Shown here one piece after another: positions 4,039 to 58,827 of a stretch of 64,000 bases of DNA (position 1 is its first letter; each line of letters opens with the position of its first letter). Under the pieces are notes generated by a model that saw nothing but the letters and a program-made list of their open reading frames with translations, was not told the DNA's origin and made no database searches. Source of the stretch: Candidatus Poribacteria bacterium (GTDB lineage: Bacteria > Poribacteria > WGA-4E > WGA-3G). The translations under genes and the position numbers were made by a program. The stretch covers positions 1 through 64,000 of the forward strand of contig JAPOZO010000064.1 in NCBI GenBank assembly GCA_026706025.1. Reading direction: 5' to 3'.

Positions 4039-4252
4039 ATTTCATTTGTAATACTAAAATTAACCAATCCAAAAACGACTAATTGCGATCTTTTTAGATG
4101 ATTTCGGGATAACACTGGAAAAACTTACCCCCCAAAAAACCTGCTTAATCTTTTACTCTCTGATATACTATTCTAACCAGTTTTCGGTGGCATTACAAGG
4201 AATCGGGTACCTATCCTGTTTCTGCTGCCCCTCCACCATGGTAAGTGTATAA

Positions 4253-4575
4253 AAACTGGGGGTAAATCCAAATAATGACGGTAGTCAAGCAGAAAATTCA
4301 CGACGATTTGGCATCTCTCAAGGCATCATCTATGAGTGGTTGGATGCTCAAGACCCGTTGACTTCTAAGAAACTGGAACCTCAAGGGCCTCAAAACATTG
4401 ATTACCAAGATCTCAAGCAACACGTTGCCGATTTTCCAGATGCCACACAACCAGAGCGTGCTGCCCATTTCGGGGTCTCAAAACATGGTATTTGGTATGC
4501 GTTGAAAAAACTCAATATCACACGAAAAAAGACACAAATTTACAAAGAACAGTGTCCGGTGAAACGTCGAGAGTA
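4253..4575 (+). pseudogene. IS630-type transposase N-terminal remnant
   Basis: The open frame from 4253 encodes two helix-turn-helix units, around SRRFGISQGIIYEWL and ERAAHFGVSKHGIWYALKKL. It then has the basic NITRKKTQIYKE segment typical of the N-terminal half (orfA) of IS630-family transposases. The frame lacks a start and, after REYL, runs into the 3' end of the convergent gene at 4579, so the catalytic DDE half is missing. No terminal repeats were identified. Confidence 0.7.
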
Positions 4576-6699: not shown

Positions 6700-6729
6700 A
6701 ACATACCTCCTTTTTTCCAGTGATGATAC

Positions 6730-7278
6730 CTATTTTTGAATCAACATTTTACGTGTCTCGGTAAAGTTGCCTGCCGTCAATGTATAAAAATAGACACCAC
6801 TCGCCACAACTTCGCCGACCTCATTTTTGCCATCCCAATATGCCGCACGGCTCCGACTCTCATAGAGACCGGCAACTTGATGTCCTAACGCCAGCGTCCG
6901 AACCAAGACACCATTTGTAGCATAGATATGCCCCGTCACATCTACAGGTTCCGAAAGGCGGTACGGTATCCATGTTTCAGGGTTGAACGGGTTCGGATAG
7001 TTCGGCAGTAACGCTGTCTCTTCGGGGAGCATCAATGCCAGAAGTCGTCGGAGATTCTCTATGCCGTGTCGGAATGCAAGCGATCCGTCATTTTCAGCTA
7101 TCAGATCGAGAACATTCGTAATCCCATCGGTATTCACATCCCAAGCCGGGTAGGCGCGTTCTTCATCTTTAGTCACGTGGATACCGAAAATGAGTTGTCC
7201 CGGTGCGATCAACCCTGTAACCACATCTTCAATATCTGTACCATTAAAGTTCGCAATAAGTAGTTTTGGACTTGGAAA
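6730..7278 (-). pseudogene. C-terminal fragment of a secreted sorting-domain protein
   Basis: The frame is open from 7278 with no usable start. It encodes LLIANFNGTDIEDV, a dockerin-like DVNTDGITNVLDLI segment and a linker. It then carries the full C-terminal sorting module (PNYPNPFNPETWIPYRLSE ... GVYFYTLTAG ... MLIQK). The upstream part of the gene has been lost or moved: its first 20 bases (7250-7269) recur at 8470-8489, next to a fragment of another secreted protein. Confidence 0.7.
7250..7269. repeat. 20-bp direct repeat, copy a
   Basis: TTCGCAATAAGTAGTTTTGG is identical at 7250-7269 and 8470-8489, same orientation. Each copy borders a fragment of a secreted-protein gene on the minus strand. 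It may be a remnant of a duplicated coding segment (KLLIAN) or mark a recombination junction. Confidence 0.7.
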
Positions 7279-9321: not shown

Positions 9322-9370
9322 CGGAATGCTCCTTTCAGTTAGATTGTCATTGTAGCACAATCTTATATTA

Positions 9371-9402
9371 GGGAGTGGTCTAAATTTCCGGGGGCAGTAC
9401 AA
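9371..9402. repeat. IS3 left-end repeat (inner)
   Basis: On the minus strand the end reads TTGTACTGCCCCCGGAAATT, followed by TAGACCACTCCC. It belongs to the element carrying orfA at 9034. The same end, with small changes, recurs at 9416-9447 and in 47895-47956, and weakly near 19188. Confidence 0.75.
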
Positions 9403-9415
9403 CAATCTTCCTTTA

Positions 9416-9447
9416 GGGAGTGGTCTAAAAAACCGTAGGCAGTACAA
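9416..9447. repeat. IS3 left-end repeat (outer, nested)
   Basis: This is a second copy of the left end, reading TTGTACTGCCTACGG on the minus strand, just outside the inner one. Two ends in tandem suggest one element inserted ~45 bp inside the end of a related element, or a one-ended event. The outer copy directly interrupts the DUF4238-like gene. Confidence 0.7.
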
Positions 9448-9779: not shown

Positions 9780-12467
9780 TTAAGACTTAATACGTAAATC
9801 CTGCGCGCTGTCAACAACTTCGTAATCGACACCGAGTGCCTCCCTGAAATGTCGCTTACCACATTCAATTTTCCTGCGCTCATCCGAACGTAAATCGTCA
9901 AGATTTGTTGTTCCCTTTGTCTCACGCACCAGGTATAACCTCTGGCCCTCATCATCAGGATAATCCACAACGATAGCCCAATCGGGGTTATATGTTCCAA
10001 TCGGCGTAGGAACTTTGAAGAAAGCTGGGAGTTTCATATAAAATTTCACAAAGTTAAGTTTCTCTAAGCCTTCAACAAATTCTTTCTCAACTTCCGAATC
10101 AAATATCACTTTCTCATAGAGTGACCGTTTTGCTGGAATGAGGTGATTTTCCCAACTATCTATTTCTATCTCAAATTGACACATCTCATAGCACTCACCA
10201 ATCTTTTCGTATCTTATCCCGTCTACCAACTGGTCGGTGAGTTTTTCTTTGATAACACGAACCGCAACGGAAGCAAATTCGTGGGGGTTGTCCAGCACTG
10301 CTTGCTGATTTCTTTGGATGCGACTGAAAATCTTAAGAAGCGTTTTCTTTGTCAGACGCGTCGGGGGCGTTGTGTTCTCCAGTAGGTGTGTCATCATATC
10401 AACTAAATTTGGCAACGGGTAGCGTCCTGCTAAGTCTATCATAGTTTTAGCGCCACTCATTTGTAAGGCTGAAAAGGTTTCTTGCTCGTCAAGTTGAACG
10501 AGTGCTTTCGTTGCTGTAATACGTGGCGGACGGATTTCAGACTCTTCTAAGGCTTCAACAACCTTGTCAACGAGCAAATCTGTATCCACATGAACAGCAT
10601 AGCGGGTTTTGTGCTTGATACGTTCCCACAATTCTTTGAACTCCGGCTTCATTATGTACGCCTTCTTTAACTTGGAAACGCCTCGTTTTCGTTTGTCAAC
10701 GGGAGCCGGCGGCAACTCTTGATCGCTGTATGCCTCTTGCATTTCCGTTTGGAGGCTATCCACATAACTTGCGTAACTCTCATTTGCGACAACGGTAAGA
10801 ACATTCACCCGTGTGTCATAAACACGGTTCCCAGACTGATCAACTGCTAACCGAATACCACGCCCGATTTCCTGTCGTTTCTTCATTTCAGAAGCCGTCT
10901 GGTTTAAGGGGCATATCTGAAACACGTTAGGACTATCCCATCCCTCTCGAAGTGCAGAGTGTGAGAAAATAAAACATGTCGGTTCATCAAAGGATAACAA
11001 TCGCTCCTTATCTCTCATAATCAAGTCGTAAGCCTCAACATCTTTCTTTGCCTCACCGGTGCTGCTATCCTCGTAAATAATTTCCCCGCTTCTTGTTTGC
11101 CGCTTAGCAAAGTAAGCGGCTTGCACACTTTCAACGTCTACGTCTCTCCAACCCGTGTATTTTTGTTTTAGCTTGTTAAAACTTTTTTTGAACAAACGAC
11201 GAATTACACCTGTTTCGAGGGCATAATTATCAACACGGTCTATAAAAAAGAGTGATAAAACCTTAATGCCAAGAGGCTTAAGACGCTCTTGCTTACGGAA
11301 ATGTTCCTCTATCGTGAGATGGATCTGTGTTTCAAAGATCGCCTCTTTATCCTCGCCCTTTGACTCGCCTCGTTCAACTTCAACGCCATTAGTAAACCGA
11401 ACAAAATCACTGAACAGATTTATTTCTTCAACAATGTAACCGTTATATTCTGGTCGGTTTGTTTCTTCAGAGAGGTTGTCCCCCGGCTTCACCGTTATGG
11501 ATTGCTCCTTTATTGTTCCATCACGCATGAGTTTATGAACGGATAACCGAGCCGTTAGGCTATTCTTTCTGCTTTGAATGTTGTTCACTCGGATAAGGGG
11601 TTGATTAACGTCATCTTCCTGTATAACTCCGTCAACCTCTATCCGTTTGACTAACCCTTGCCTATATGCTTCAGCAGGTGTTAGACGATAAACCATGTTG
11701 TATGAAACTCGATGTGTTGCACTATAACGTAGCGTAAAGAGTGGATCAAGTGCTGCGAGTGCCCTAACGCGTAATTCACTGACCATATTCTGCGGTTCGT
11801 CAAGAATTAATATCGGTCGAGTTGCCTGCACAAGGTGAATGGGGGTCTCTCCCTGTAAACGGTCAGTAGTCTGGCGAATGATATTTGATGCCTTATTAAA
11901 AGAGTCAATCGTCATCACCATAATTTCTACGCTATCTGAAAGTGCAAACTGGCGCACTTGTGCCGGATACGCGGAATCGTAGGCATAGTAGCGATAGGGC
12001 GTATTATCATAAAGTCTGCAAAGGTGATCTTGGGTAATCTCCAACGTTTTCAGTACACCTTCGCGGACAGCAACTGAAGGAACGACAACAATGAATTTCT
12101 TCAAGCCGTAAAAGCGAAAGAGTTCCAGTATAGTTCGCAGGTAGATATAGGTTTTGCCAGTTCCAGTTTCCATTTCAACGGAAAAATTAGGAAAGCAAAC
12201 GGTCTTGTCGCCAGTAGCTGTAACTATTTTTTCCTCAATATACTCAATTTCCACATCCTCATCTAAATTATTTTCTGCTTGTACCGATTTTAGGTTACTT
12301 AACAAGGCTTCATCGTCCAAATCTATACAATTCGGCACAGCAGCAAACAGCGTTCCGTTCTCGAACTGTAATTCAACTTCAACACGGGATTGTCCCTTTA
12401 ACAGGTTCGTCACGGATTCTATTGCCTTGAGTTGATAATCCTGATTCGCTTCAAATTTAAATTTCAT
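9780..12467 (-). CDS. res: Type III restriction enzyme, Res subunit
   Basis: This is an 895-residue superfamily 2 DNA translocase/nuclease. Walker A is ETGTGKT at residues 100-106, and the DEAD-like box is DEPQ (~222). Motifs around SALREGWDSPNVFQ and EIGRGIRLAVDQ correspond to helicase motifs V and VI. The C-terminus holds a PD-(D/E)xK nuclease site (YNPDWAIVV ... RETKG). With Mod it should cut DNA lacking methylation. The start overlaps the stop of the preceding gene by four bases (ATGA), indicating coupling in a three-gene operon. Confidence 0.92.
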   Translation of the reverse strand: MKFKFEANQDYQLKAIESVTNLLKGQSRVEVELQFENGTLFAAVPNCIDLDDEALLSNLKSVQAENNLDEDVEIEYIEEKIVTATGDKTVCFPNFSVEMETGTGKTYIYLRTILELFRFYGLKKFIVVVPSVAVREGVLKTLEITQDHLCRLYDNTPYRYYAYDSAYPAQVRQFALSDSVEIMVMTIDSFNKASNIIRQTTDRLQGETPIHLVQATRPILILDEPQNMVSELRVRALAALDPLFTLRYSATHRVSYNMVYRLTPAEAYRQGLVKRIEVDGVIQEDDVNQPLIRVNNIQSRKNSLTARLSVHKLMRDGTIKEQSITVKPGDNLSEETNRPEYNGYIVEEINLFSDFVRFTNGVEVERGESKGEDKEAIFETQIHLTIEEHFRKQERLKPLGIKVLSLFFIDRVDNYALETGVIRRLFKKSFNKLKQKYTGWRDVDVESVQAAYFAKRQTRSGEIIYEDSSTGEAKKDVEAYDLIMRDKERLLSFDEPTCFIFSHSALREGWDSPNVFQICPLNQTASEMKKRQEIGRGIRLAVDQSGNRVYDTRVNVLTVVANESYASYVDSLQTEMQEAYSDQELPPAPVDKRKRGVSKLKKAYIMKPEFKELWERIKHKTRYAVHVDTDLLVDKVVEALEESEIRPPRITATKALVQLDEQETFSALQMSGAKTMIDLAGRYPLPNLVDMMTHLLENTTPPTRLTKKTLLKIFSRIQRNQQAVLDNPHEFASVAVRVIKEKLTDQLVDGIRYEKIGECYEMCQFEIEIDSWENHLIPAKRSLYEKVIFDSEVEKEFVEGLEKLNFVKFYMKLPAFFKVPTPIGTYNPDWAIVVDYPDDEGQRLYLVRETKGTTNLDDLRSDERRKIECGKRHFREALGVDYEVVDSAQDLRIKS

Positions 12468-13441
12468 GATTCTATCATTTCCAGTAACGACGCGACGAAA
12501 TCTCTACAAGATTCCTCATTTCTGACATTAGGAAGCGGGATAAACTCCGACTCTATTGTTCTTAACTCTTGATCCCCACCTTCAACACGTTCTAACTGCA
12601 CTTGCTCAATAGATTCTTGAACTGGATAATAGACTACAATAATAGGAAGTGGTGGTCCGTTGCCACTCAAGTAATCATTGAAAATAGCTAGCCTATTATA
12701 TTTTCTACCATCCCGACTCCAGTTGTTACCCCGCCGATAATAATTTGAGAGCTTCTGATCATCAAAAGAAAACCTACGATCGCTGGGCGTGTGCTTCTTG
12801 AACTCTATAATCGCATGCGGAGTAAAGTTGGAATCCACCAAAACCAAATCCGCGTCGCCGGGCCAAGCCGCTCCTTCGTCTTTTTTGTCGTTGGCCAAGT
12901 AACACTCAAGGGTTGATAAGCCCAAAATTAACCCTTTAGCACCAACAGGAACGGGCCCTCCTGCATGCGCCTGAATACGACCCATCAGAATAGATAATTC
13001 AACCTCTCGAACATCTGTGACCAAACCATCCGCACCAAAACTTACTGCAACAATAGGTGATGGGGAATTTTCCCAATCGTCGGATTCCTTAAATAAAAAA
13101 TAGTGACAAGACATACCATATCTATCAGCGAATCCGCAAAGTTGTTTTACCTTCCCTTCGTCATCACATTGATATACCGCGTCCGAGATGTCATGAGACA
13201 ACACAGGCCACGGTGTAAAAGAGGGCTCTACAATTCGCTTTATCCACAGTCGATTTGAAATTGAACGGGTGCGCCAATTAACAAAAAAGTCAAATGTAAA
13301 TCCCACCAGACCATGTGGCTCTAAATAGGTATCTGCCAACCACTCATCTGGCTCTCCACTATGCGGGTGGGTCGATGCTGGACTTGCTCGATTGTTACAG
13401 TAGGCTAATGTTGGCTTAAGAAGCATTTCTGTGTTTCCCAT
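12464..13441 (-). CDS. Putative PD-(D/E)xK-type protein between mod and res
   Basis: This 325-residue protein has no family I can name. Around residues 195-215 it has DADLVLVDSNFTPHAIIEFK, a D...ExK pattern after a hydrophobic strand like nuclease cores of the restriction-endonuclease fold. It lies 32 bp after mod and overlaps res by four bases, so it is probably made together with the type III enzyme. Canonical type III systems have only mod and res. The ATG at 13441 lacks a clear ribosome binding site, so the start may be a few codons later. Confidence 0.65.
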   Translation of the reverse strand: MGNTEMLLKPTLAYCNNRASPASTHPHSGEPDEWLADTYLEPHGLVGFTFDFFVNWRTRSISNRLWIKRIVEPSFTPWPVLSHDISDAVYQCDDEGKVKQLCGFADRYGMSCHYFLFKESDDWENSPSPIVAVSFGADGLVTDVREVELSILMGRIQAHAGGPVPVGAKGLILGLSTLECYLANDKKDEGAAWPGDADLVLVDSNFTPHAIIEFKKHTPSDRRFSFDDQKLSNYYRRGNNWSRDGRKYNRLAIFNDYLSGNGPPLPIIVVYYPVQESIEQVQLERVEGGDQELRTIESEFIPLPNVRNEESCRDFVASLLEMIES

Positions 13442-13473: not shown

Positions 13474-15330
13474 TCAGATAATTTTCAAACGACCTTGCAA
13501 GGCTAAATTCGCTTTCTGTCCGTCATTTAGCGCGACATCACGGCAAATAAAGAGATCTTGTATATCAAGATTCAGTTCTTTAGAAATCCCGGGATCAATC
13601 GTGTCATCTAAGCATATTTTGAAAGTTTGCTCTTTGTCAAAATCGGTCACACTATAAACGGTGTTCACGCAGATATTTTCCAGAAGTTCAATACGACAAT
13701 TTAAACCATAGCCTTCCGTTATAGCAATTTCATAAATGACATCTTCTACACTCCAATCGTCTACCAAAGGGTCATTAAACAGAGCCATTTTTTGGGTATA
13801 TGCATCAAAATCCTTTTCGTCGCAGCCCTGCCATGAACGATAATTGGAAGGTGATAGTTTGAACATTTTGACTCCGATTTGATTAGATGCTTCATCATGA
13901 TCGTCTTTCTGTTGTATCCTCGTAATAGCGCGTCGAATACGTTCCTTGCCAATATCAGCAACACTGGATAAGATAGGACCATCTTCCAATTTTTTTGGCG
14001 GTTCCAGTGGTTCGGGCAATTGAACGCAAATAAACCTTCTATTACCTCCATCTTCTCGATTCAAGTCTAATACGGCATCTGCTGTCGTACAAGATCCAGC
14101 AAAAAAATCAAGAACAATATCTCCATCGGAAGGTGATGTTGAGAGTTGTAATATCTGCTTTATCAAGGTGGTCGGTTTAGGATTATCGAAAATCCCACCG
14201 CCAAGAAGAGCCTTTAATTCATTATTCGCCTCATGGGTATTTCCGACCTCATCATTTAACCATATAGTGACAGGTGTAATTCCAGACTTAACCTCGGAGA
14301 GGTAACTTTTCTTAGACGGTGTAGATTTCCCTTCTTTACCAAACCAAATCTCATTATTTGCATCAAGTTCATCAAGCGTTTCCCTTGAATAGCGTGGAAA
14401 TCTTCCGGGAGGGGGCGACCAAACAACACCATTCTTAAATGTATATTTAAAAAGCGATTGTTTTTTTCCGCTTTTTGCGTGAAGCGGCGTCGCTTTCCAT
14501 ACGCCTCTTGGATCATTATCGGGATTCGAGTAACTTACTTTTTGGTCATCAGTGCGGGGCAATAAATTAAGCTTAAGTTTTTCTTTGTTGCGCGCGAAAA
14601 CCAAGATATAATCATGGTTATTCGAGAACCATTTTGCATCGTTACTCCTTGTATACTTCTTTTGCCAAATGATGCTTGAGATAAAATTCTCTTCTCCAAA
14701 AACTTCGTTCATTAACATCCGTAGATTATGCACTTCATGGTCGTCAATACTGACAAAAATTAAACCGTCATCGCGCAGCAACTGTTTCGCTGTAAATAAA
14801 CGAGGATGCATCATCGAAAGCCAGTCTGAATGGTAACGTCCGTTCGTTTCAGCGTTATTAGTAAGCAAATTGCCATCTGCGTCTTTTTGTCCAGTAAGTT
14901 GATAATAGGTATCCATTGGACTCCTATAATTATCAGGATAAACAAACTCTTTACCAGTGTTATAGGGCGGATCAATGTAAATTACCTTGATGCGACGATC
15001 ATAAGGCTTACATAGCAATTTCAATACTTCCAAATTTTCGCCTTCAATAAAAAGGTTCCGCGTCTCATCAAAATTTACAGATTCCTGTTGCATCGGAATC
15101 AAAGTTGAAGAAGAAGGAACTCGAAGCATACGTATTGCATCACGTTTTCCTGCCCATGTAAAATTATAGCGTTCAAATTCGTCCTCCACAACCTCTCCTA
15201 AGACCTCACGGAGTTTCTGAAAGTCTACCTTACCTTCAGTAAAACACTCTGGAAACAACTCTTTTAGGTCTTCCACCCGTTCATCTAATGCAGATGTTGT
15301 AAATTTTTCAACCTTTTCTGGTTTTGCCAT
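13474..15330 (-). CDS. mod: Type III DNA methyltransferase, Mod subunit
   Basis: This 618-residue N6-adenine methyltransferase has DPPY at 120-123 followed by NTGKEFVYPDNY. The AdoMet-binding motif LDFFAGSCTTADA lies around residue 410, giving the DPPY-before-FxG order of the beta class used by type III Mod. The N-terminal ~90 residues and the central variable region would contain the target recognition part. GGGAG lies seven bases before the ATG. The structured leader RNA at 15436-15514 and its promoter lie just upstream, so the whole mod-res operon is likely expressed through that leader. Confidence 0.93.
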   Translation of the reverse strand: MAKPEKVEKFTTSALDERVEDLKELFPECFTEGKVDFQKLREVLGEVVEDEFERYNFTWAGKRDAIRMLRVPSSSTLIPMQQESVNFDETRNLFIEGENLEVLKLLCKPYDRRIKVIYIDPPYNTGKEFVYPDNYRSPMDTYYQLTGQKDADGNLLTNNAETNGRYHSDWLSMMHPRLFTAKQLLRDDGLIFVSIDDHEVHNLRMLMNEVFGEENFISSIIWQKKYTRSNDAKWFSNNHDYILVFARNKEKLKLNLLPRTDDQKVSYSNPDNDPRGVWKATPLHAKSGKKQSLFKYTFKNGVVWSPPPGRFPRYSRETLDELDANNEIWFGKEGKSTPSKKSYLSEVKSGITPVTIWLNDEVGNTHEANNELKALLGGGIFDNPKPTTLIKQILQLSTSPSDGDIVLDFFAGSCTTADAVLDLNREDGGNRRFICVQLPEPLEPPKKLEDGPILSSVADIGKERIRRAITRIQQKDDHDEASNQIGVKMFKLSPSNYRSWQGCDEKDFDAYTQKMALFNDPLVDDWSVEDVIYEIAITEGYGLNCRIELLENICVNTVYSVTDFDKEQTFKICLDDTIDPGISKELNLDIQDLFICRDVALNDGQKANLALQGRLKII

Positions 15331-15435
15331 AGAAAACTCCCTTTTAAACTAATGCCTTGTGAAACCCAATGGCATTTTAACCAAAACACTTCGGTCATTT
15401 TTTATTGAAAAGCAAATTTATTGGATTTACCAGCC

Positions 15436-15514
15436 CAGTCCTTTATCCATCCACCACGGTTGGAGGGTGGCAGAATCGGAATGGGTCCGATTCGTGGTGG
15501 TGCCACCCGAACTG
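15436..15514 (-). ncRNA. Structured pseudoknot leader RNA, copy 3 (upstream of mod)
   Basis: On the minus strand the helices are: outer CAGTTC (15514-15509) with GGACTG (15441-15436); inner GGGTGGCA (15508-15501) with TGCCACCC (15472-15465); pseudoknot CCACCAC (15500-15494) with GTGGTGG (15457-15451); and a central hairpin GAATCGG/CCGATTC with a 7-base loop. The linker reads TCCAACC. Its 3' flank (AAATCCAATAAATTTGC) matches the flank of copy 2 at 16 of 17 bases. It is more divergent than the others but has the same topology. Confidence 0.7.
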
Positions 15515-15522
15515 GTTTGAAT

Positions 15523-15551
15523 AGTATAACATATAGGACGAGACATTGCAA
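15523..15551 (-). promoter_or_regulatory. Promoter of the mod-res operon
   Basis: On the minus strand TTGCAA (15551-15546) and TATACT (15528-15523) are 17 bp apart. The expected start near 15516 is two bases before the outer helix of the leader RNA. Confidence 0.7.
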
Positions 15552-16779: not shown

Positions 16780-17144
16780 ATATATTTTAATACCTATACA
16801 AAATATGTGCAACAAAAAAACAAAAGAATGTCCGAGTATGCAAGTTTTGCATGACGCAACGCCAAAAATGCATCTATCAATAGCACAAACCCGCCAAGAA
16901 TGGCATAAAAACTTTCCATAATATGTAAAATCTAAAAACTGTACCGATGGCAGGACACTGCCGCGAGTTAGACATATTTTGGTTGTTAATTAAATTTTTT
17001 ATTGTTAAACAACAAAAAAACAAAAAATTTCACGCGTCTAAGAAAGTGTTTCATCCCTAATTGTTGTTTAACCATTTTAATATATACTCCTTTAATTGTT
17101 TTAAGGGTGCCACGAACCCATGCTACATCTGTGTTTGTAGATTT

Positions 17145-17298
17145 AAACATGAACGTTTATGGGGAGAAACATGAACGTTTATGGGGAGAAACATGAACGT
17201 TTATGGGGAGAAACATGAACGTTTATGGGGAGAAACATGAACGTTTATGGGGAGAAACATGAACGTTTATGGGGAGAAACATGAACGTTTATGGGGAG
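17145..17298 (+). repeat. Seven perfect 22-bp iterons (replication origin)
   Basis: The 22-bp unit AAACATGAACGTTTATGGGG plus AG is repeated seven times without gap or mismatch. Tandem 22-bp iterons next to a Rep_3-type gene are the classical initiator binding sites of theta-replicating plasmids. Seven identical copies imply recent amplification or strong homogenisation. The centre GAACGTTT holds a short partial palindrome. Confidence 0.92.
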
Positions 17299-17370
17299 CA
17301 GCCTAAGAACCTATGATATTACTTGTGGATGCGGCTTATAGCGATACAGAAAATACAGATTTTCGACTTT

Positions 17371-17413
17371 AAAATGAGAGTTTATGGGATTAAATATGAA
17401 CGTTTATGGGGTT
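17371..17413 (+). repeat. Two degenerate iterons between origin and rep
   Basis: AAAATGAGAGTTTATGGGATT (17371-17391) and a unit at 17392-17413 keep the GAACGTTTATGGG core of the iterons with changes at the ends. Their position closer to rep fits the autoregulatory half-sites used by many iteron plasmids, which is inference. Confidence 0.75.
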
Positions 17414-17631
17414 AAATATGAAAAATTATATTGATAAAGGTTCATATTAATTGTATACTAACATAAGTTCCATAATAAAAATGCGAGTGTAGATATAAGT
17501 TAGGTTGAGCCAAACATCAAACCAACGAATGCTTATGCGTATTTGGAGTTAATGCCCTACGACTCCTAAAGTCTTATATGGAACTTACTTTATGCTATGT
17601 AACATATATTCCAAACGTAGAGGGAGGTCTC

Positions 17632-18951
17632 ATGAACTTAGCGAAAATCACCGAAGTCGTGAAGGCAAGTCCAGCGATTCAAATTCAGAGCAAAATTTCG
17701 CTACTGCAACGGCGGGCATGGAATGTCTTGTTGGCGAATGCCTACAACGAACTTCCAAACCAAGAAATTCATTGTGTGAGTATGGTTGAATTAGCAGCGA
17801 AACTTGGTTTTGATAGCAAGAACGAGGATTACTTAAAAGAAGTGTTAAGAGAACTCCGTTTTTGTGAAGTCGAATGGAATCTCCTTAACAAGGACAACAA
17901 ACAAGTATGGGGCGTAGCGGGTCTATTGGCTTCTGTCGAAATCGAAGATGGCATCTGTACCTATGCGTTTGCACCGCATCTTCGTCTAAAACTCTATAAT
18001 CCACGCGTCTACGCCAAGTTGAACTTACGGCTCCAAAATCGGTTCAAAAGCCAGTATGCGTTGGTTTTATGGGAACTCTGTTTTGACTATTTTGATACAG
18101 ATCGGGACCAAGGCGAAACTCCTTTCATTTCACTCGAAACGTTTAGAGAACTTCTCGGAATCGAAAGTGATGAGTATCCAGCATTCAGTATATTCAACCG
18201 AGCTGTTATCAAGCCAGCTATCAAGGAAATCAACAAAGAAACAGACTATTTCGTCGGAGTCGAGCAGAAACGCGTCAAACGTCGGGTCGGTGAACTCAAA
18301 TTCCGAATTACTAAGGTCAAACAAATCTCCATTCAGGAATCCCTCTTTCCTGATATAGAGAACCTTCCCCCTGTTGCCATTGAACTTGTCCAAGCCGATG
18401 TTGATCGGAAAGTCGCCTTGAACATTGCCAACCACGAATGGGACTTCATCAACTCCCAAAAGTTGCCGCCTCCCGGTACCTACTCGGATTTTCTGGAGTA
18501 TGTCGCTGAGAAGGTTGAGATCTCGCTTAATGCCGCAGATGTCAAGAATCGTGGCGGGTTCATCGTTGAGGCGATCCGTGAAAACTATATTGATCCCGCC
18601 GTGCAGAAGGAACGCGAACTGCGCGCCGAAAAAGCCAAAGAAAAAGAACTCGAAGACTTGACGGCAGAATTCAAAGTCAAACGCGATAATATCCTTCGCC
18701 AAGCCGTCCACGCACAGCCCGAACTCATTGAGCGTGCCGCGGAAAGAATACAATCTTATATGGTCCGGGACCGCCTCCTTGAACATGATTCTGCTATAGA
18801 GGCATATCAGAAGGGCGGTATGATAAAAGCAGAAATTGATGGCATCCTCGCTGAAGAGTTCTGTCAAGACCTGCTGGTACCAGTTGTTGCTGTGTATGAA
18901 GACGAAAAGGCAAGAATCCTCGGAGAAGTCGGAGTTCAAGGAAATAGTTAG
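17632..18951 (+). CDS. Plasmid replication initiator, Rep_3 family
   Basis: This is a 439-residue initiator. Residues ~15-230 fit the two winged-helix domains of Rep_3/RepE-type proteins: KISLLQRRAWNVLLANA, then YALVLWELCFDYF and FNRAVIKPAIKEIN in the second. The C-terminal ~200 residues are a long charged, partly coiled-coil extension (ERELRAEKAKEKELEDL), longer than in typical plasmid Reps. GGGAGG precedes the ATG at 17632. It should bind the iterons at 17145 and open the origin. Confidence 0.88.
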   Translation: MNLAKITEVVKASPAIQIQSKISLLQRRAWNVLLANAYNELPNQEIHCVSMVELAAKLGFDSKNEDYLKEVLRELRFCEVEWNLLNKDNKQVWGVAGLLASVEIEDGICTYAFAPHLRLKLYNPRVYAKLNLRLQNRFKSQYALVLWELCFDYFDTDRDQGETPFISLETFRELLGIESDEYPAFSIFNRAVIKPAIKEINKETDYFVGVEQKRVKRRVGELKFRITKVKQISIQESLFPDIENLPPVAIELVQADVDRKVALNIANHEWDFINSQKLPPPGTYSDFLEYVAEKVEISLNAADVKNRGGFIVEAIRENYIDPAVQKERELRAEKAKEKELEDLTAEFKVKRDNILRQAVHAQPELIERAAERIQSYMVRDRLLEHDSAIEAYQKGGMIKAEIDGILAEEFCQDLLVPVVAVYEDEKARILGEVGVQGNS

Positions 18952-19063: not shown

Positions 19064-19169
19064 AGTGCCAACGTTTATTCAGACCGAATATTAGCAAAGT
19101 TAAGACAAGTGTTGTTGGTCGCATTCAACGGGTTTCAAAACACCTAACGCCGAGCAGTGTATCAGAATC

Positions 19170-19209
19170 TTGGTTTAGAGGGTGCCCCGAATTTCCGATG
19201 GCAGTACAC
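19170..19209. repeat. Possible solo IS3 end
   Basis: GAATTTCCGATGGCAGTACA matches the end sequence at 9371-9402 and 47895-47956 at most positions. No transposase is nearby, so it would be a solo remnant. The match is short. Confidence 0.4.
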
Positions 19210-19283: not shown

Positions 19284-20192
19284 ATGTCAGATAATCCTAT
19301 CATGAACATCGGGGACTTAGCAAAACCTGCTACTACTCTAATTGAGAAGATAGCAGATGCTGGATATATCCTTTTTGGTGAATCTTACCGGATCAAACAG
19401 GTCGCAAAAGCGAAAGCGGAGGCGGCAGTAATTGAAGCGGAATCCCGAATTGAGATAACCGACTTACACAGACGAGCAATACACCGATGGATTGAAGAAG
19501 AAGCACAATATCAGAAGAACATGGAAGACATCACTGAAAAAGCAACCCATCAGTTAAACGAAGATGCCGATCCTCATGCCATAGACAACGACTGGATTGC
19601 CCAATTTTTTGATATAACCCGATTAATATCTGATGATGAAGTGCAAAATATATGGGCAAATATTTTAGCCAGCGAAGCTAATAACCCTGGTGGTTTTTCT
19701 ATCAGAACGCTTAACGCTTTAAAATCTATTGATAAAAAAGAGGCCGAATATTTTACAAGGTTATGCAACTTTATCGTAAGAATAGACAGAGAGGGCTCAT
19801 TTTCGGATTTTGTCCCAATTGTACTTAATCCGAACGATAAAATATATGCACAACATGGAATTCACCACAATATGTTGAATCATATTCAAAACGATATTGG
19901 ATTAATAGAGTTTCGTTATCTCCTGGGTGCATTTCACAATTATAGGATTTTGGCAGAACCAATAGAAAGTTTATCTATTACATATCACGGTCAAAAACTA
20001 ATATTAAAAGTTCCTAAAGGTGAATATCTTTATGATGATGGCAAAGCTCGTGTTAATCTTGGAAGTGTAACATTAACGAAAGTTGGATTTGAACTTTGCC
20101 AAATTTGCGAAACCAAACCTATTAATGGATTCTTTGAATATATGCAAACAAAATTACAAGATGATATAAACAAAACTTTAAAAACGGAATAA
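19284..20192 (+). CDS. DUF2806-family protein
   Basis: This 302-residue protein has an N-terminal IGDLAKPATTLIEKIADAGY stretch, a long helical region, and then NDWIAQFFDITRLISDDEVQ and IWANILASEANNPG. This combination is characteristic of DUF2806 proteins as I recall them. The C-terminal ~100 residues are beta-rich. AGAGG lies six bases before the ATG. The biochemical role is unknown. Its placement in a mobile block, next to an IS end and near an integrase, suggests an accessory cargo or defence gene, which is inference. Confidence 0.7.
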   Translation: MSDNPIMNIGDLAKPATTLIEKIADAGYILFGESYRIKQVAKAKAEAAVIEAESRIEITDLHRRAIHRWIEEEAQYQKNMEDITEKATHQLNEDADPHAIDNDWIAQFFDITRLISDDEVQNIWANILASEANNPGGFSIRTLNALKSIDKKEAEYFTRLCNFIVRIDREGSFSDFVPIVLNPNDKIYAQHGIHHNMLNHIQNDIGLIEFRYLLGAFHNYRILAEPIESLSITYHGQKLILKVPKGEYLYDDGKARVNLGSVTLTKVGFELCQICETKPINGFFEYMQTKLQDDINKTLKTE

Positions 20193-20329
20193 TTGCGTTA
20201 AAAGTGCAAGCAACGAATCATTACAGAAAACGGCATAAGCACGAAACTACTACACCCCTGTGTCGTCTATAAGCTGCGTAAAGATGGGCTTATATACAAG
20301 CATTTAGCAGAAAAATTAGAGAGCACACT

Positions 20330-21067
20330 ATGAAAGGTACAAGACCCCTTGATAACGACGAGATCCGCCGGGTATCCGGATGTTTCACCGGCATTTTTGA
20401 AGTACGCAACCGAGGTCTGTTCATGCTCGGAGTCTCCACAGGAGGACGCATCTCTGAGCTGCTTAGCCTACGCGTCGGTGATGTGTACCAGAACAAGAAG
20501 CCGGTGACCGATCTGCTCTACACGAAACGGATTGTCAAAGGTAGCGAGGTTAGCCGTAGTGTCCCAGTAAACGCTGATGGCAGGCGCGCAATTCGGGACC
20601 TCGTTGATTGGCACCGGGAGCATTACCGATCCATCGCCGCAAAACGACCGTTATTTCCCTCGCGACACAACTCCGGCACTGTGGCACTGCACCGCCAAAC
20701 CGCGCACGAGATACTCAAGACAGCTTTCATCGAGGCGGGGCTGAACGGACACATAGCGACGCATTCACTGCGGAAGTCTTTCGCCCAGAGACTATACGAC
20801 AAGACCGGCGACATCTATATGGTGCAAGAGCTGCTCGGACATCGAAATATCAGCACAACCCAAAAATACTTGGGTGTCAACTATGCAGATGCGAGGGCAG
20901 CCGTAGAAGCAATCTCATTAATTACCGAGTCTGACAGAAACCACCTTTCGTCAGACTCACTCACAGACATTGACGATGAAACACTCCGGAGTGAACTCGA
21001 AAAACGCGGATACAACGTCACCATCCCGAGAGAAAACACCACCGCGGAAATCGTCAAGATCGGATAA
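20330..21067 (+). CDS. Tyrosine recombinase, catalytic domain only
   Basis: This 245-residue site-specific recombinase shows the integrase signature: Arg40 in GGRISELL, His145 and Arg148 in HSLRKSF, the LLGHRN box (~His171) and the nucleophile Tyr near 180 in KYLGV. It lacks the N-terminal SAM-like core-binding domain usual in XerC/D and phage integrases. The protein starts almost at the catalytic domain. It could resolve plasmid multimers or integrate the element. The ribosome binding site is weak. Confidence 0.88.
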   Translation: MKGTRPLDNDEIRRVSGCFTGIFEVRNRGLFMLGVSTGGRISELLSLRVGDVYQNKKPVTDLLYTKRIVKGSEVSRSVPVNADGRRAIRDLVDWHREHYRSIAAKRPLFPSRHNSGTVALHRQTAHEILKTAFIEAGLNGHIATHSLRKSFAQRLYDKTGDIYMVQELLGHRNISTTQKYLGVNYADARAAVEAISLITESDRNHLSSDSLTDIDDETLRSELEKRGYNVTIPRENTTAEIVKIG

Positions 21068-30800: not shown

Positions 30801-32884
30801 CTCCCTTAGCAGGCCTCAAAAATTTACAAAAATTAGACACTGTAGGTGCTGATATTACCGATCTTTCCCCCTTGGCAGGATTGACAAAACTAACGAGACT
30901 TCGCCTCTATGCTATCAAAGCAACCGACCTCTCTCCCTTAAAAGGCTTGACAAAACTGAAATGGCTGGGTCTTACGCATAACGACCATATCACTGACTTC
31001 TTACCCTTGTCAAGATTAACAGAGTTGAGGCATCTTGATCTGTTCAATACTCATATTGTGGATGTTTCTCCGTTATCAGGATTGGTTAATTTGGAAACGT
31101 TGATACTTAGTGAAAACCGAATCGTAGATGTCTCGCCCCTGGCATCTCTGCGTAACCTAAAAACGTTAGAACTTCACGTGAATAACATATCAGACTTCTC
31201 ACCCTTGGATCCCATACGCGAGACGATAGAAGTCTTCACTTGGTACAGCAACCCGGGGTTTCCACAAGGCGGTCCAAAAATTGCAGGGCCTTGGCTCTGG
31301 CTAACCTTGCCAGCAAACAGAGGTGAGGATATCCTTCTTACGGATTACTTAGCAAAAGCATCCAATAGTAAAATTACAGAACAACAGATCGCTACCTTCG
31401 GTGCCTTGGACGGAGCTGCTATAGGAGAAAGTGTGTGGTCGGTTGGAACACTTGAGCCTTATAAAGCGGATGGCAAATGGAGCAATGTGAAGAACCTTAA
31501 AAGACTATTAGACGCTCAAGGTGCTATTGAACTTAGTGACGGCGAGGATTTTGTTGTCTACGGTTCTATCACTTTGTATGCTCCAAGAACACAGCAGACG
31601 AAAATATTCATAGGTGCCAGTGAGCCTCGAAAAGTCTATCTTAATGGCAAGTTAGTTCATGAAGACGATGCAGACCATAACGCCAGATCCTGGGCTTATG
31701 ATTACCAAACATTTTTTCCGATCACACTGCAACCGGGGAAAAATGTGTTGTTGATAAAACTTGGTGATGAGTGGGATAATGATATATTGTCTCTCTTTTT
31801 CGGATTAGAACCTGACACCGAATATAAGATATTCAACCCCAGTGTCGGGTACAGCTTCTCTGATTCTAAAATCCATGTCGGCGATACATTTACCCTTGAC
31901 CTGAGTGCAGAGAACGTATTTGATTTAGCCGGATGGCAATTTGATATTGCGTTTGATCCAGCAGTGCTTGAAGCCATTGAAGTCAACGAAGGCGATTTTC
32001 TCAAGGAAAGCAGCGGAACGACCTTCTTCCAAAAAGGCACCATTGATAACGCGACAGGCAAGATTATCAAACTCAGTTCAGCGAGGCTCAACGAAGATGG
32101 TGTTGCCGGCACAGGCACACTACTCTCTGTAACATTCACAGCAAAAGCAGCAGGCGAAACCCGACTATCGCTCAACAACTTCCAATTGGGTTCTGTCACG
32201 GGTGAAGCCATCAACGCGGGACCCCACGAATTTGTTTTCACTATAGACGGACAACTCGCGACCGGAGACGTAAACCGAGACGGACAGGTGAGCGTCCTGG
32301 ATCTGATCCTGGTCTCTCGACACCTCGGTGAAGACGCAGCTGCGAGCCCGCAGGCAGACGTAAACAACGATGGCATTATCAACATCCAAGACCTCATCGT
32401 CGTTGCACAACACCTTGGTGAATCAACCGACGCTGCAGCACCTGCCGTTATCACAGCAATAAACAATGGTGAACTAACACCTGCGATAATAGAGACTTGG
32501 ATAGAAAAAGCCCATCTTGAAAACGACGGGTCGCTTGCCTTCCAACAAGGCATCGCGAATCTTCAACGGCTCTTGGCAGTGTTGATTCCAGAGGAAATGG
32601 CTTTACTTGCCAACTACCCAAACCCGTTCAACCCGGAGACATGGATCCCTTACCAGTTAGCGAAGCCGGCAGAGGTGACATTGACCTTCTATGCAGCAAA
32701 CGGGGCAGTCGTTCGCACATTTGCTTTAGGACATCAAGCTGCGGGGATGTATCACAGCCGGAGTCGTGCGGCTTACTGGGATGGAAGAAACGAGGTAGGT
32801 GAACCTGTCGCGAGTGGTGTCTATTTCTACACACTCAGAGCAGGCGATTTCTCTGCAACGCGTAGGATGTTGATACGGAAGTAA
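27860..32884 (+). CDS. Giant exported cytochrome c / LRR / cohesin / dockerin protein
   Basis: This is a 1674-residue protein. The signal peptide is residues 1-22 (ending SASAQ). The cytochrome c-like module has CLDCH at 38-42 and a second haem site CIGCH near 402-406. Two internalin-like LRR blocks, each introduced by PDPNLRAAIA, hold about 12 and 9 repeats of the ISDLSPLAxLTxLxxL type (~600-1115). A beta-sandwich domain ends near 1325, with a cohesin-like domain at ~1330-1464. A dockerin-like pair of calcium loops (DVNRDGQVSVLDL, DVNNDGIINIQDL) comes next. The sorting module ends the protein. AGGAG precedes the ATG. Predicted location is the cell surface or medium. Confidence 0.9.
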   Translation: MKGIKPIFSIFILIATALSASAQQELAQQAYLILENRCLDCHGPNGAFTENLVIDSATGLVDTGAIVPGQPLTSNLYTRLITTDTAKRMPLGQPPLDDAALQIISDWIAAGAPNWQTQHDVTFIPTDALLSEIQQHLQTLNIFDQPFARYFTMTHLYNAGETLEAHNAYQIALAKLVNSLSWGFDIHNPIPIDDAETIFYIDLRNYEWDIRDAWTQIENVYPYAITFDEQTQAGLHTKLATLQQTMNAEVPFVHVDWFLATASLPPLYHNILQLPETEPELERALGVDAERNLLRDPGRRVWRAGTNDSGVSNHNRVVERHTSRYGAYWKSHDFAGSAATQNIFTNPLDFQRDGGEVIFNLPNGLQGYYIADKSGNRIDVAPTEIVSNPAASDPAVHNGLSCIGCHTEGMKTITDQVRTVIEQTVNPPFDKDYALLLYVPQERIDALLAEDTARYKTALEETGGVFGGIEPVHRFYEAFQDALEAPDAAGAVGLQTDVFLTQISQKSSLQNLGLTALTGGGSVKRDAWTQNFSEIITALQSPDTPVTTTPDTVRPIPPTPGRTVQFPDPNLRAAIADALGKAPGDPITVAEIATLKRLDANNKDISDLTGLESAMNLRWLAFSHNTVSDLSPIAKLTNLTFLWFEGSRQVSDISPLTRLTNLEKLHFSSNSVSDLSPIKGLINLTHLEFNWTSVSDLSILVELSNLEWFRMWGHAVSDLSPLAELTKLEWVEICGGRVSDLTPLAGLTRLKRLAITQEPLVDISPLAELTHLEKLYLEKNEISDISSLARLTNLRELRLQNNKIFDISPLARLTNLQELNLQDNLISDISPLAGLNNLGKLDLRDNPVSDLSHLEELFKNPNIEIFTTEVYFTDPNLRAAIAEELNKTQRDPITTEEMATLQYLFAGDKNISDLTGLEFAKNLIVLGIGDNPLSDLSPLASLTKLRELHFHDTEVADLSPLSGLLELEIIDVSETRIRSLAPLAGLKNLQKLDTVGADITDLSPLAGLTKLTRLRLYAIKATDLSPLKGLTKLKWLGLTHNDHITDFLPLSRLTELRHLDLFNTHIVDVSPLSGLVNLETLILSENRIVDVSPLASLRNLKTLELHVNNISDFSPLDPIRETIEVFTWYSNPGFPQGGPKIAGPWLWLTLPANRGEDILLTDYLAKASNSKITEQQIATFGALDGAAIGESVWSVGTLEPYKADGKWSNVKNLKRLLDAQGAIELSDGEDFVVYGSITLYAPRTQQTKIFIGASEPRKVYLNGKLVHEDDADHNARSWAYDYQTFFPITLQPGKNVLLIKLGDEWDNDILSLFFGLEPDTEYKIFNPSVGYSFSDSKIHVGDTFTLDLSAENVFDLAGWQFDIAFDPAVLEAIEVNEGDFLKESSGTTFFQKGTIDNATGKIIKLSSARLNEDGVAGTGTLLSVTFTAKAAGETRLSLNNFQLGSVTGEAINAGPHEFVFTIDGQLATGDVNRDGQVSVLDLILVSRHLGEDAAASPQADVNNDGIINIQDLIVVAQHLGESTDAAAPAVITAINNGELTPAIIETWIEKAHLENDGSLAFQQGIANLQRLLAVLIPEEMALLANYPNPFNPETWIPYQLAKPAEVTLTFYAANGAVVRTFALGHQAAGMYHSRSRAAYWDGRNEVGEPVASGVYFYTLRAGDFSATRRMLIRK

Positions 32885-37037: not shown

Positions 37038-38621
37038 TCACTCAGCAGTTGTATAGACCGTGCCGTTCTGAAATCCGAAAGACGCACCCCATCCACTATC
37101 CCAAATCTCTTTGTGTCGATAAGCGTCGATAAACAGCAGATTCTCACCGGCATTGAGTGTGACAGGCACAGCCGTTACGTAATCGATTCCCTTCAGGTAA
37201 TTGGAATTTCTGTAAACCCTCGTCCCGTTGAGCCAGACATCCACCAGAAATCCAGAGATATACATCCGCGTCCGCTGCGGTTTTTCCGAGTGGATGGACA
37301 CCACACCATAAACGAGCAGGTCGTATATCGCCAAGTCGTAGCCACTCCCGATAATGTCGCGGGCGATAGTGTCGAGGTTGGCTGGATCTGCTGCCGTGAG
37401 TGGTGCAGGTGTCCAAACGCTGTTTCCAAATTGCGTCACTTGCGTCCCGGCACTTGCACCGTTGACGGCAATATGGGCTTCAAAAATATCGTGCTTAGAG
37501 GGTGCCTCATCTAATTCGGGGATATCCGTCCCTGGCATTTCATCTCGTATCGTTGGCAGAATCAACCAGATCCACCCGTCCTCTATCTGAGGTCCGGGGG
37601 TCTGAAAAGCCGGATTGTCCGGAAAATAGACAACTGTCCCTTGCTCCATTAGCCTGTCAAGCGTTTGAATATCCGAGATCGTGTTGTGCCCGAGATTGAG
37701 AGTCTGCAGGTTTTTGAGGTTCGCCAAGGGTGATATATCCGAGATCGTGTTGTGCTGGAGCTCAAGGATATATAGGTTTGTGAGGTATACTAACGGCGAT
37801 ATATCTGAGATCGTGTTGTGCTGGAGATGCAGGTTAAATACGTCTATTGCAAATTCGATGCCGCGTAGGTCGGTAATTTCCCTCCCCTGTGCCCGAATAT
37901 GCGATAGGTAAACCACGTTTTCTATCTCCGATTCCATCTCCGCCCGCGTGATGGTCTCCCCCGGTGGCTTACTGAGTGCTTCGGCAATCACGGCGCGTAG
38001 GTTCGGATCCGGGATGTCAACGACGTGCTGAGGTCCGAGGGTCTGAAAAGCCGGATTGCCCGAAAAATAGACAACTGTCCCTTGCTCCATTAGCCTTTCA
38101 AGCGTTTGAATATCCGAGATCGTGTTATGACGGCAATTGAGTTTCTTCAGGTTTTTGAGGTTCGCCAAGGGTGATATATCCGAAATCGAGTTGCGCGGGA
38201 GAACCAGTATAAGTAGATTTTTGAGGTTTGCTAACGGCGATATATTCGAGATAAAGTTGCCACTGAGAAACAGAGTTCTCAGGTGCGTTAGACGTGCCAA
38301 GGGCGATATATCTGATATAGTGTTGTTAAAAAGAGTCAGCTCTTTGAGGTTTATTGCGAACTCAGTGCCGCGTAGGTTGGTAATCTCCATGCCCGGTGCC
38401 TTAAGTTCATGCAACGTTTCCATCTCCGCCCGCGTGATGGTCTCCTCCGGTGCCTTCTGGAGTGCTTCGGCAATCGCGGCGCGGAGGTTCGGATCCGGGA
38501 TGTCAACGCCTTTCGCTTTGTGTTTTTCGTAGTGTATGTAAAGCAGAGAACCTGCAGCACACAATCCCAAAAACGCTAACAGACCTATAGAGCTGCTGTT
38601 TTTGAAAATGTCTGGAAACAT
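37038..38621 (-). CDS. LRR protein A with N-terminal membrane anchor
   Basis: This 527-residue protein has an uncleaved membrane segment (IGLLAFLGLCAAGSLLYIHY). Two LRR blocks each start with DIPDPNLRA, followed by 22-residue repeats of the type ISDISPLANLKNLxxL. The C-terminal ~180 residues form a beta-sandwich (VYGVVSIHSEKPQRTRMYIS and VDVWLNGTRVYRNSNYLKG), also present in the giant protein at 27860. It is a tandem paralogue of protein B. GGAG lies nine bases before the ATG, one base after the stop of an upstream gene scrap. Probably displayed in the periplasm or at the surface. Confidence 0.85.
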   Translation of the reverse strand: MFPDIFKNSSSIGLLAFLGLCAAGSLLYIHYEKHKAKGVDIPDPNLRAAIAEALQKAPEETITRAEMETLHELKAPGMEITNLRGTEFAINLKELTLFNNTISDISPLARLTHLRTLFLSGNFISNISPLANLKNLLILVLPRNSISDISPLANLKNLKKLNCRHNTISDIQTLERLMEQGTVVYFSGNPAFQTLGPQHVVDIPDPNLRAVIAEALSKPPGETITRAEMESEIENVVYLSHIRAQGREITDLRGIEFAIDVFNLHLQHNTISDISPLVYLTNLYILELQHNTISDISPLANLKNLQTLNLGHNTISDIQTLDRLMEQGTVVYFPDNPAFQTPGPQIEDGWIWLILPTIRDEMPGTDIPELDEAPSKHDIFEAHIAVNGASAGTQVTQFGNSVWTPAPLTAADPANLDTIARDIIGSGYDLAIYDLLVYGVVSIHSEKPQRTRMYISGFLVDVWLNGTRVYRNSNYLKGIDYVTAVPVTLNAGENLLFIDAYRHKEIWDSGWGASFGFQNGTVYTTAE

Positions 38622-38622
38622 C

Positions 38623-38769
38623 TTATTTTTCTCCGTCCGTCAAATAGGTTTGGGGTATCTTCAGTTCGCCGGTAATGATTTTGGCTTTCGCGGCTTTTTG
38701 GACCGCCATTGGCACGTTCTGCTTCAACGCCGGATTGTAGACAAAGGTGATGGCTTCATCGGTTGCCAT
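38623..38769 (-). pseudogene. C-terminal tail of a BMP-like substrate-binding protein
   Basis: The minus strand encodes FVYNPALKQNVPMAVQKAAK followed by [19 protein letters not shown] and a stop one base before the LRR A start. It resembles the last ~45 residues of BMP/Med-type ABC-transporter binding proteins. The bulk of the gene is missing. Its last 19 codons are also found upstream of LRR B. Confidence 0.5.
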
Positions 38770-38819
38770 ATCCGTTCTGTTCGTTTTTCTCTAAAGGTCA
38801 GGAGCGATAGGCGAAACGT

Positions 38820-40223: not shown

Positions 40224-40224
40224 C

Positions 40225-40370
40225 TTATTTTTCTCCGTCCGTCAAATAGGTTTGGGATATCTTCAGTTCGCCGATAATCCCGTTGAAAACAGCCCCATTT
40301 GCTAAAAGCGGTGTAATGTCTTTAAACAGAATACCGGGCTTCGGATAATCGGGGATCGTTCGGATAAACT
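40225..40370 (-). pseudogene. Adenine phosphoribosyltransferase start fused to a BMP-like tail
   Basis: Minus-strand translation gives [20 protein letters not shown] followed by LLANGAVF, the highly characteristic N-terminus of adenine phosphoribosyltransferase. It changes at NGIIGELKI into the tail also seen upstream of LRR A. The 5' side joins the aldehyde dehydrogenase fragment at a repeated CAGTTTATC, a likely microhomology junction. None of the pieces is a functional gene. Confidence 0.75.
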
Positions 40371-43974: not shown

Positions 43975-43999
43975 GTTGGTAAAGCCCCCTCTTTTGATA

Positions 44000-46243: not shown

Positions 46244-46255
46244 AGGTTTCTCCTA

Positions 46256-47894: not shown

Positions 47895-47956
47895 TAGATT
47901 ATCATTGTAGCACAATCTTATATGAGAGAGGGGTCTAAATTTCCGGTGGCAGTACA
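47895..47956. repeat. Solo IS3 left-end remnant
   Basis: 62 bp match the left-end region of the IS3 element (9340-9401) with few changes, including the TAGATT(G/A)TCATTGTAGCAC segment and the GGCAGTACA tip. There is no transposase. It has replaced the natural 3' end of the DUF4268 gene copy beside it. Confidence 0.75.
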
Positions 47957-58770: not shown

Positions 58771-58827
58771 GGTTCGTAGTAGTGCGATTTTGCGGTGTAC
58801 TCACCCAGAATTGCACTACTACGAACC
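58771..58827. repeat. 15-bp perfect inverted repeat between the BCCT copies
   Basis: GGTTCGTAGTAGTGC (58771-58785) and its exact complement (58813-58827) are separated by 27 bases. It sits at the boundary of the duplicated BCCT tail, 31 bp after the stop of the intact gene. It may be a terminator-like or small palindromic repeat element. Confidence 0.75.

Follow-up and report, generated by a model that had tools for sequence, protein, structure and literature searches.

A pseudoknotted leader RNA, found here in front of a type III restriction-modification operon, looks like a shared, undescribed control element of defence and transposon nuclease genes. Our main reading, to which we give a probability of about 0.5, is that the leader is a cis-acting 5' RNA of a new family that would work as a translational two-state switch. 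As is typical of cis-regulatory leaders, the RNA lies in the 5' UTR on the strand of the gene, has its own promoter, recurs at many unrelated loci and shows covariation, while the regulation itself is putative. The DNA analysed is positions 1-64,000 of the forward strand of contig JAPOZO010000064.1 (Candidatus Poribacteria bacterium, assembly GCA_026706025.1), and this whole 64,000-nt stretch is referred to as the window. The Poribacteria considered here are sponge-associated. The operon consists of the following genes:

13474-15330 (-): mod, type III DNA methyltransferase, 618 aa (PADLOC MTase_III, E 6.8e-184; Pfam)
12464-13441 (-): middle ORF of the operon, 325 aa, without a family match in the Pfam and PADLOC scans
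9780-12467 (-): res, type III restriction enzyme, 895 aa (E 7.6e-244; Pfam)

The arrangement, in which mod adjoins res, is that of a type III restriction-modification operon, defined by a methylase together with a ResIII helicase and endonuclease, and the PADLOC and Pfam matches of both genes bear out the first-pass annotation, which had named it as such. Upstream of mod, the promoter, the leader and the parts of the leader are, from 5' to 3':

15546-15551 (-): -35 hexamer TTGCAA (promoter scan; a like layout in most relatives)
15523-15528 (-): -10 hexamer TATACT (promoter scan)
15423-15517 (-): leader RNA, 95 nt, pseudoknotted (covariance models, covariation)
15509-15515 (-): X, the 5' strand of the outer stem P1, CCAGUUC (covariation, duplex energies)
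15502-15508 (-): P2 5' strand GGGUGGC, partner 15465-15471 (covariation)
15493-15500 (-): pseudoknot 5' strand CCACCACG, partner 15451-15458 (covariation, strand swapping)
15474-15492 (-): P3 hairpin, AAUCGGA-loop-UCCGAUU (covariation)
15465-15471 (-): P2 3' strand GCCACCC (covariation)
15459-15464 (-): conserved junction UCCAAC, UCCCACC in most relatives (alignment)
15451-15458 (-): pseudoknot 3' strand CGUGGUGG (covariation, strand swapping)
15442-15450 (-): conserved AUGGAUAAA, GGGGGAUAAA in most relatives (alignment)
15435-15441 (-): X'1, the first copy of the P1 3' strand, GGACUGG (covariation, duplex energies)
15429-15433 (-): X'2, the second copy of the P1 3' strand, CUGGU, alternative partner of X (folding, energies)
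15331-15422 (-): 92-nt spacer, including the mod ribosome site AAAAGGGAG (read from sequence)

The TTGCAA-N17-TATACT site (15551-15523) stands directly 5' of the RNA and is the sole sigma-70-like minus-strand site found there, with no other between leader and mod start, which agrees with the earlier claim that the only promoter before mod drives a transcript beginning with the leader. Two more minus-strand sites of equal score (9/12) lie further upstream, at 15704-15675 and 15664-15636. In the survey described below, the -10 hexamer begins 11-12 nt 5' of the RNA in 118 of 150 instances of the leader form found at mod (the first form), and transcription should therefore start at the leader's first bases; the promoter score is at least 8/12 in 130 of these 150 instances, compared with 24.6% in shuffled sequence. 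The leader thus has its own promoter and is predicted to form the first ~95 nt of the mRNA.

Folding of 15331-15551 gave z = -3.5 for the minus strand and z = -0.1 for the plus strand, and the RNA proper (15423-15517, minus strand) gave z = -3.3. The mod leader scores 101.6 bits, which should be considered together with the fact that the covariance model used includes it. The strand-specific folding and this score, together with the covarying copies elsewhere, confirm that a structured leader precedes mod, as had been proposed. Across the family, the order from 5' to 3' is X (CCAGUU), P2 (GGGUGGC), one A, the pseudoknot strand, P3 and P2', followed in the 3' half by UCCCACC, the second pseudoknot strand, GGGGGAUAAA, X'1 (AACUGG) and X'2 (CUGG). 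The predicted fold is an H-type pseudoknot (P2 and the pseudoknot helix, with P3 inside) closed by the outer stem P1. The automatic minimum-free-energy fold of the mod leader chooses X:X'2 and lacks the pseudoknot because a fold of this kind cannot include one.

For the search of relatives, blastn of the window with small words gave one relative (4135-4276, plus strand), and the genome to which the window belongs (6.27 Mb, 103 contigs), searched at the DNA level, yielded further copies, of which four were used. Covariance model R1 was built from six sequences and R2 from 37, while R3 describes a second form of the leader. Our survey set contains 153 instances, namely 149 that were fetched of the best 150 of 202 R1 matches, and four additional ones (two weak copies of the own genome and two extra matches in fetched stretches); the listed match outside the 149 is the partial G047:C157, and 52 weaker matches lie outside the survey. 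It should be noted that the 153 instances are not independent, as some are orthologous loci.

On the aligned sequences all helices covary, the pseudoknot most clearly. In 37 aligned relatives, 93.9% of the cells in the five helices are paired, compared with 84.5% after shuffling, 109 cells are changed on both sides, compared with 30.2, and the covariation is 0.330, a value reached by none of 500 shuffles, compared with 0.149. Sliding the helix partner by one to three columns reduces pairing in the same relatives to 37-52%. Pairing is weaker, at 85.8%, in the fifth helix, which joins UCCC to GGGA around the pseudoknot strand. All seven pairs of the pseudoknot are formed in 95 of the 153 instances; after strands had been exchanged between instances and refitted, the mean was 16.8 and the maximum 25. 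The 5' strand of the pseudoknot occurs in 72 different versions. P2 contains 80 G-U cells and 19 A-C cells, a preference that fits RNA as the acting strand; the pseudoknot helix favours G-U over A-C weakly (64 and 46, respectively).

The first-pass annotation had spoken of four copies of the leader in the window, the one at mod and three others. With two covariance models and filters off, just one other was found, scoring 81.5 and 70.9 bits, while the next best places in the window reach 12.2 and 12.8:

4141-4169 (+): promoter of the second copy, CTGCTT-17-TATACT (read from sequence)
4175-4269 (+): second leader copy, before an IS630 transposase remnant (blastn, covariance models)

What follows this copy is a decayed IS630 transposase fragment (PF01710), rather than the small membrane protein that had been described, and no copy before a winged-helix/cas6 operon was found in the window. 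The Rep3 protein (17578-18951) does have a winged helix, and the sequence upstream of it holds iterons and no such leader. The observation made earlier is therefore correct for mod and res, the promoter and the leader structure, and wrong for the number of copies. The D11 repeats (9340-9446, 19147-19208 and 47895-47956; TGTACTGCC...GGAAATTTAGACC on the minus strand) were considered as further copies and rejected, as they have the look of insertion-sequence ends and no leader core; one of them lies inside an ORF with a transposase helix-turn-helix, and they are probably the ends of an insertion sequence.

Several other features of the window are recorded here in their own right. At 17123-17435 (+), seven or more 22-bp direct repeats (AAACATGAACGTTTATGGGGAG) lie directly before the Rep3 gene (plus strand), and repeats and initiator together form a predicted plasmid origin of the iteron type; the 69,765-bp contig probably represents a plasmid. 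Repeated coding segments that read NYPNPFNPETWIPYQL in a by-eye translation (1327-1605, 6729-7096, 32518-32883, 43998-44281 and 46254-46537) resemble a tail for sorting or anchoring that secreted proteins have in common. Two neighbouring genes at 37554-40278 (-) carry 66-bp internal repeats of leucine-rich-repeat-like character, with long duplicated blocks that are up to 95% alike. A long hairpin at 58771-58827 (GGTTCGTAGTAGTGC ... GCACTACTACGAACC) is perhaps a small mobile element, and a DUF2806 protein with weak Abi_alpha similarity stands beside a phage-type integrase (19284-20192 and 20330-21067, both plus strand).

The R1 model found 202 first-form leaders in the 84 Poribacteria genomes searched, with the form present in 49 of the 84 and in 2 of 21 genera, and R2 found it in 51 of the 84 and in 3 of 21 genera, all of one family. 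A search of species genomes with an exact core pattern yielded 18 stretches, all from Candidatus Poribacteria; as the pattern fits the commonest first-form core alone, this result is compatible with divergent forms elsewhere. Exact core patterns gave 0 stretches in viral contigs (IMG/VR), and blastn gave no match among PLSDB plasmids. With Rfam 15, nothing reached gathering for the whole window, the second form or the mod leader, the best E-values being 2 for the second form and 4.9 for the mod leader, far below the gathering scores.

The property that suggests a switch is that the 3' strand of P1 is present twice in tandem, a few nucleotides apart, so that X can pair with either copy. Among the 78 first-form instances with two CTGG/TTGG motifs, the median duplex energy is -8.7 kcal/mol for X'1 and -7.55 kcal/mol for X'2, and in 62 of these the two differ by at most 2 kcal/mol or X'2 is favoured. 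In L111, a rarer first-form member with other letters, all three segments are still matched. A strict search gave no second site in 45 of 153 first-form instances, and fewer than two CTGG/TTGG motifs are present in 45 of 150. Each of the 18 distinct leaders of the second form has both X'1 and X'2, spaced by 6-9 nt, and X varies (CAGG, CACG, CGTG, CAAG) with both 3' copies following it; for X:X'2 alone, 95.0% of the cells are paired and 10 are changed on both sides, compared with 3.0 after shuffling (0 of 500 shuffles). From the near-equal energies and the covarying copies, we infer a two-state leader.

The position of the start codon indicates what such a switch could act on. In 73 of 146 cases, 0-5 nt separate the RNA from the start of the gene, and among the 74 leaders abutting a gene, 40 have a gap of exactly 8 nt between X'2 and the start codon. 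Of these 40, 28 represent one protein family, and the others include a BglII-like enzyme (L027), a TIR protein (L123), L113 and L144; weakly DUF4407-like genes are also among those with the exact 8-nt gap. In 64 of the 146 cases, however, the distance to the gene start exceeds 30 nt (31-150 nt in 48 cases and more in 16), and mod of the window is one of these; at such a distance, blocking of the start codon cannot work. A motif like the Shine-Dalgarno sequence was found for 21 of 73 abutting genes, compared with 35 of 48 genes that lie 31-150 nt away.

We thus propose that in the ON state the pseudoknot core would be folded with X on X'1, leaving X'2 and the start region behind it open, while in the OFF state X would pair with X'2 and form a helix just 5' of the start codon that would block the ribosome. 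Which of the two states prevails would depend on a putative factor binding to the conserved core (UCCCACC ... GGGGGAUAAA). Under such shared control, genes that are costly or harm their own cell (restriction-modification, abortive infection, TnpB) would stay at a low level until the need arises. At mod, 92 nt and a separate ribosome site lie between the leader and the start codon, and the output would have to be either indirect, through mRNA stability or ribosome standby, or vestigial.

The same geometry can be read without a switch, and this is a possible, though clearly less probable, explanation. The leader could be a constitutive 5' element, the pseudoknot of which protects the 5' end of the mRNA or helps to recruit the ribosome to genes that lack a Shine-Dalgarno sequence, without sensing anything, and genes that move horizontally would carry it as an expression module. 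The start of the leader at the mRNA 5' end, the lack of a Shine-Dalgarno sequence in most abutting genes and the very different genes that it accompanies are all consistent with this explanation, while a tandem, covarying second P1 strand and a conserved unpaired core would be needless for protection.

With regard to the genes behind the leader, 149 of the 153 instances gave a downstream ORF on the same strand, belonging to 48 families, and four gave no ORF pick; as the ORF was picked by a simple rule, the assignment may be wrong for some. N6/N4 DNA methylases (PF01555) make up 24 of the 149. Further groups are an FRG/TPR-type family (8 ORFs, FRG itself in 4 by the Pfam tally), an HSDR_N-type family (4 ORFs, 3 by the Pfam tally), DpnII-like enzymes (3), tnpB (3), ApeA (3) and MvaI/BcnI restriction enzymes (2). 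Singletons include a BglII-like enzyme, a type II restriction enzyme (L035), a D12 methylase, AbiTii and TIR, and NACHT, HerA and SNF2 helicase proteins are found farther away or as the second gene.

As a control, 149 random ORFs of at least 100 aa, taken from 20 random stretches of five genomes, were scanned in the same way. PF01555 is not among the control's 25 commonest Pfam families (the last of which has 4 members), compared with 24 of 149 behind the leader, and no methylase model is among its 25 commonest PADLOC rows (the last of which has 2), while models of the helicase type match control ORFs too. Since the control tables show the 25 commonest rows, a genome-wide count of PF01555 is the better test. 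Of the 26 first-form leaders in six genomes, 6 are followed on the same strand by a PF01555 domain at a distance of 97-432 nt, against a background of 115 matches in an estimated 33,170 genes (0.35%; the number of genes is extrapolated from 378 ORFs in 400 kb), which corresponds to ~65-fold enrichment (P ~4e-10). In the same genomes, 109 of the 115 methylase matches are without such a leader.

Two small-protein families, the largest besides the methylases, are not known as defence genes and are not explained by the defence idea, which counts against the two-state reading too. One, a small secreted coiled-coil family (L116:434-889 and 38 relatives, MKTILALSILF...), accounts for 39 of the 149 downstream ORFs, and the other, small proteins beginning MDILEELKARDER (L043:1205-1498 and 19 relatives), for 20. 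Both often adjoin ordinary metabolic genes behind the leader. These 59 of 149 ORFs weigh against the suggestion, which we regard as unlikely, that the leader is a riboswitch or protein target reporting phage infection, DNA damage or plasmid state. In its favour are the strong bias towards defence and mobile genes, the combination of a conserved core with alternative pairing, and genome G080, where a 289-kb second contig with 4.8% of the DNA of its two contigs carries 4 of the 7 first-form leaders (P 1.6e-4). The two-state reading can be extended in a similar direction, and we hold this to be just as doubtful: one RNA sensor with a sliding P1 could be the master post-transcriptional switch of the lineage's whole repertoire of defence and selfish elements. 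If true, restriction-modification, abortive infection, TIR and TnpB proteins would be translated together on one signal that folds the leader, for example infection or foreign DNA.

The second form of the leader (~90 nt, UAUCAGG ... CCUGAUA CCUGAUA, compared with ~95 nt for the first form) sits 5' of tnpB genes with quite different N-termini, and 8 of 9 proteins scanned match OrfB_IS605, the ninth (L210) being a piece cut by the contig end. Its 17 aligned leaders have 99.6% of the cells paired and 75 cells changed on both sides, compared with 21.4 after shuffling. R3 finds it in 47 of the 84 genomes, among them every one of the 38 that belong to the genus of the window. Of the 62 OrfB_IS605 domains in four genomes, 50 are directly preceded by the second form, and 50 of 59 R3 matches (E <= 1.5e-5) lie directly upstream of such a domain. 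Two strong second-form leaders (G018:C17:17423-17513 and 20227-20317) occur in a genome of another family of the same order, which suggests transfer together with the insertion sequence.

The methylase enrichment, the defence families (restriction enzymes, ApeA, AbiTii, TIR, D12) and the placement before tnpB together show that the earlier statement, by which accessory and defence-type genes share one leader, was right and applies far more widely than could be seen from the window. The survey of downstream genes that had been proposed returned enrichment of defence and mobile genes, rather than the lack of it. The first interpretation thus holds for the sharing of one leader and fails for the four copies in the window, and the results lend no support to any specific signal, be it phage infection or plasmid state.

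The leader seems to move with its gene. Homologous defence genes at different sites share sequence just from about -20 to -60 on (L074/L079, 95.7% from -45; L028/L042, 90.6% from -19), with longer shared upstream sequence in the exceptions L014/L108 and L038/L031, and in L141 the break is inside the leader, the 5' part of which is lost. Promoter, leader and gene thus seem to travel as one unit, and leaders could as such act as recombination joints. The similarity of L215 and L216 extends from 126 bp on the 5' side of the leader start to 1344 bp on its 3' side, which places the second-form leader inside a tnpB insertion sequence. One could, on these grounds, consider the element as acting at the DNA level, as a mobile-element end or recombination joint for which RNA structure is secondary; the short shared flanks, the L141 break and the tnpB-only insertion sequences would agree. 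We find this improbable, as it does not account for the fixed promoter spacing, the same-strand ORF behind 149 of 153 instances, the preference for G-U over A-C in P2 or the fixed 8-nt start spacing in unrelated genes.

HDV-like ribozymes have a nested double pseudoknot, a 3-bp P3, P1.1, P4 and a catalytic C. A self-cleaving ribozyme of this type, suggested by the strand order (P2, pseudoknot, P3, P2', pseudoknot') and the 7-bp P2, is very improbable and was rejected as a class, since P3 is modelled with 7 pairs instead of 3, P1.1 and P4 are absent and no Rfam ribozyme matches.

The usual view is that each defence system has a control of its own. If the two-state leader exerts real control, a single post-transcriptional control would extend over methylases, restriction enzymes, abortive-infection genes and hundreds of tnpB genes, which raises the testable question of which signal turns defence on. 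The leader also offers a handle for annotation, as a gene behind it becomes a candidate defence or selfish gene, the two abundant small-protein families included, and it represents a new RNA fold in which one stem strand is present in tandem and the two copies are interchangeable. In the part of the literature covered by our search, no report of this leader RNA was found, the closest cases being RNAs that each belong to one system, such as abiF/RCd22 and ToxI. As a leader RNA we consider it a known kind; new to us are its fold, the duplication of a stem strand and the range of genes that it serves.

In IS200/IS605 elements, the tnpB guide RNA is located at the 3' end. The leader resembles these elements in that its second form belongs to tnpB-only elements, and differs from their guide RNA in being a 5' leader that is common to genes other than RNA-guided nucleases. 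The preQ1 riboswitch classes are translational riboswitches with pseudoknots (PMC11625349), and the leader is similar to them as a small pseudoknotted 5' element with alternative pairing near the start codon (PMC11625349). Unlike them, it has no Rfam match and carries a tandem duplicate of the P1 3' strand, the genes behind it are unrelated defence and mobile genes rather than those of one metabolic pathway, and ligand binding is putative. The ToxI RNA of the type III toxin-antitoxin system ToxIN, the antitoxin of one RNase (PMC5772629), is likewise a small RNA pseudoknot 5' of a defence gene (PMC5772629), whereas our leader is without a shared protein partner; a type III toxin-antitoxin system was accordingly rejected, with no constant partner among the 48 downstream families. 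Finally, the abiF RNA motif and RCd22 are tied to one protein family, and the RNA binds the toxin directly (PMC12373285). As structured RNAs that control their anti-phage gene, they are comparable to the leader in its association with anti-phage genes, where control is putative, but the leader described here precedes dozens of unrelated proteins.
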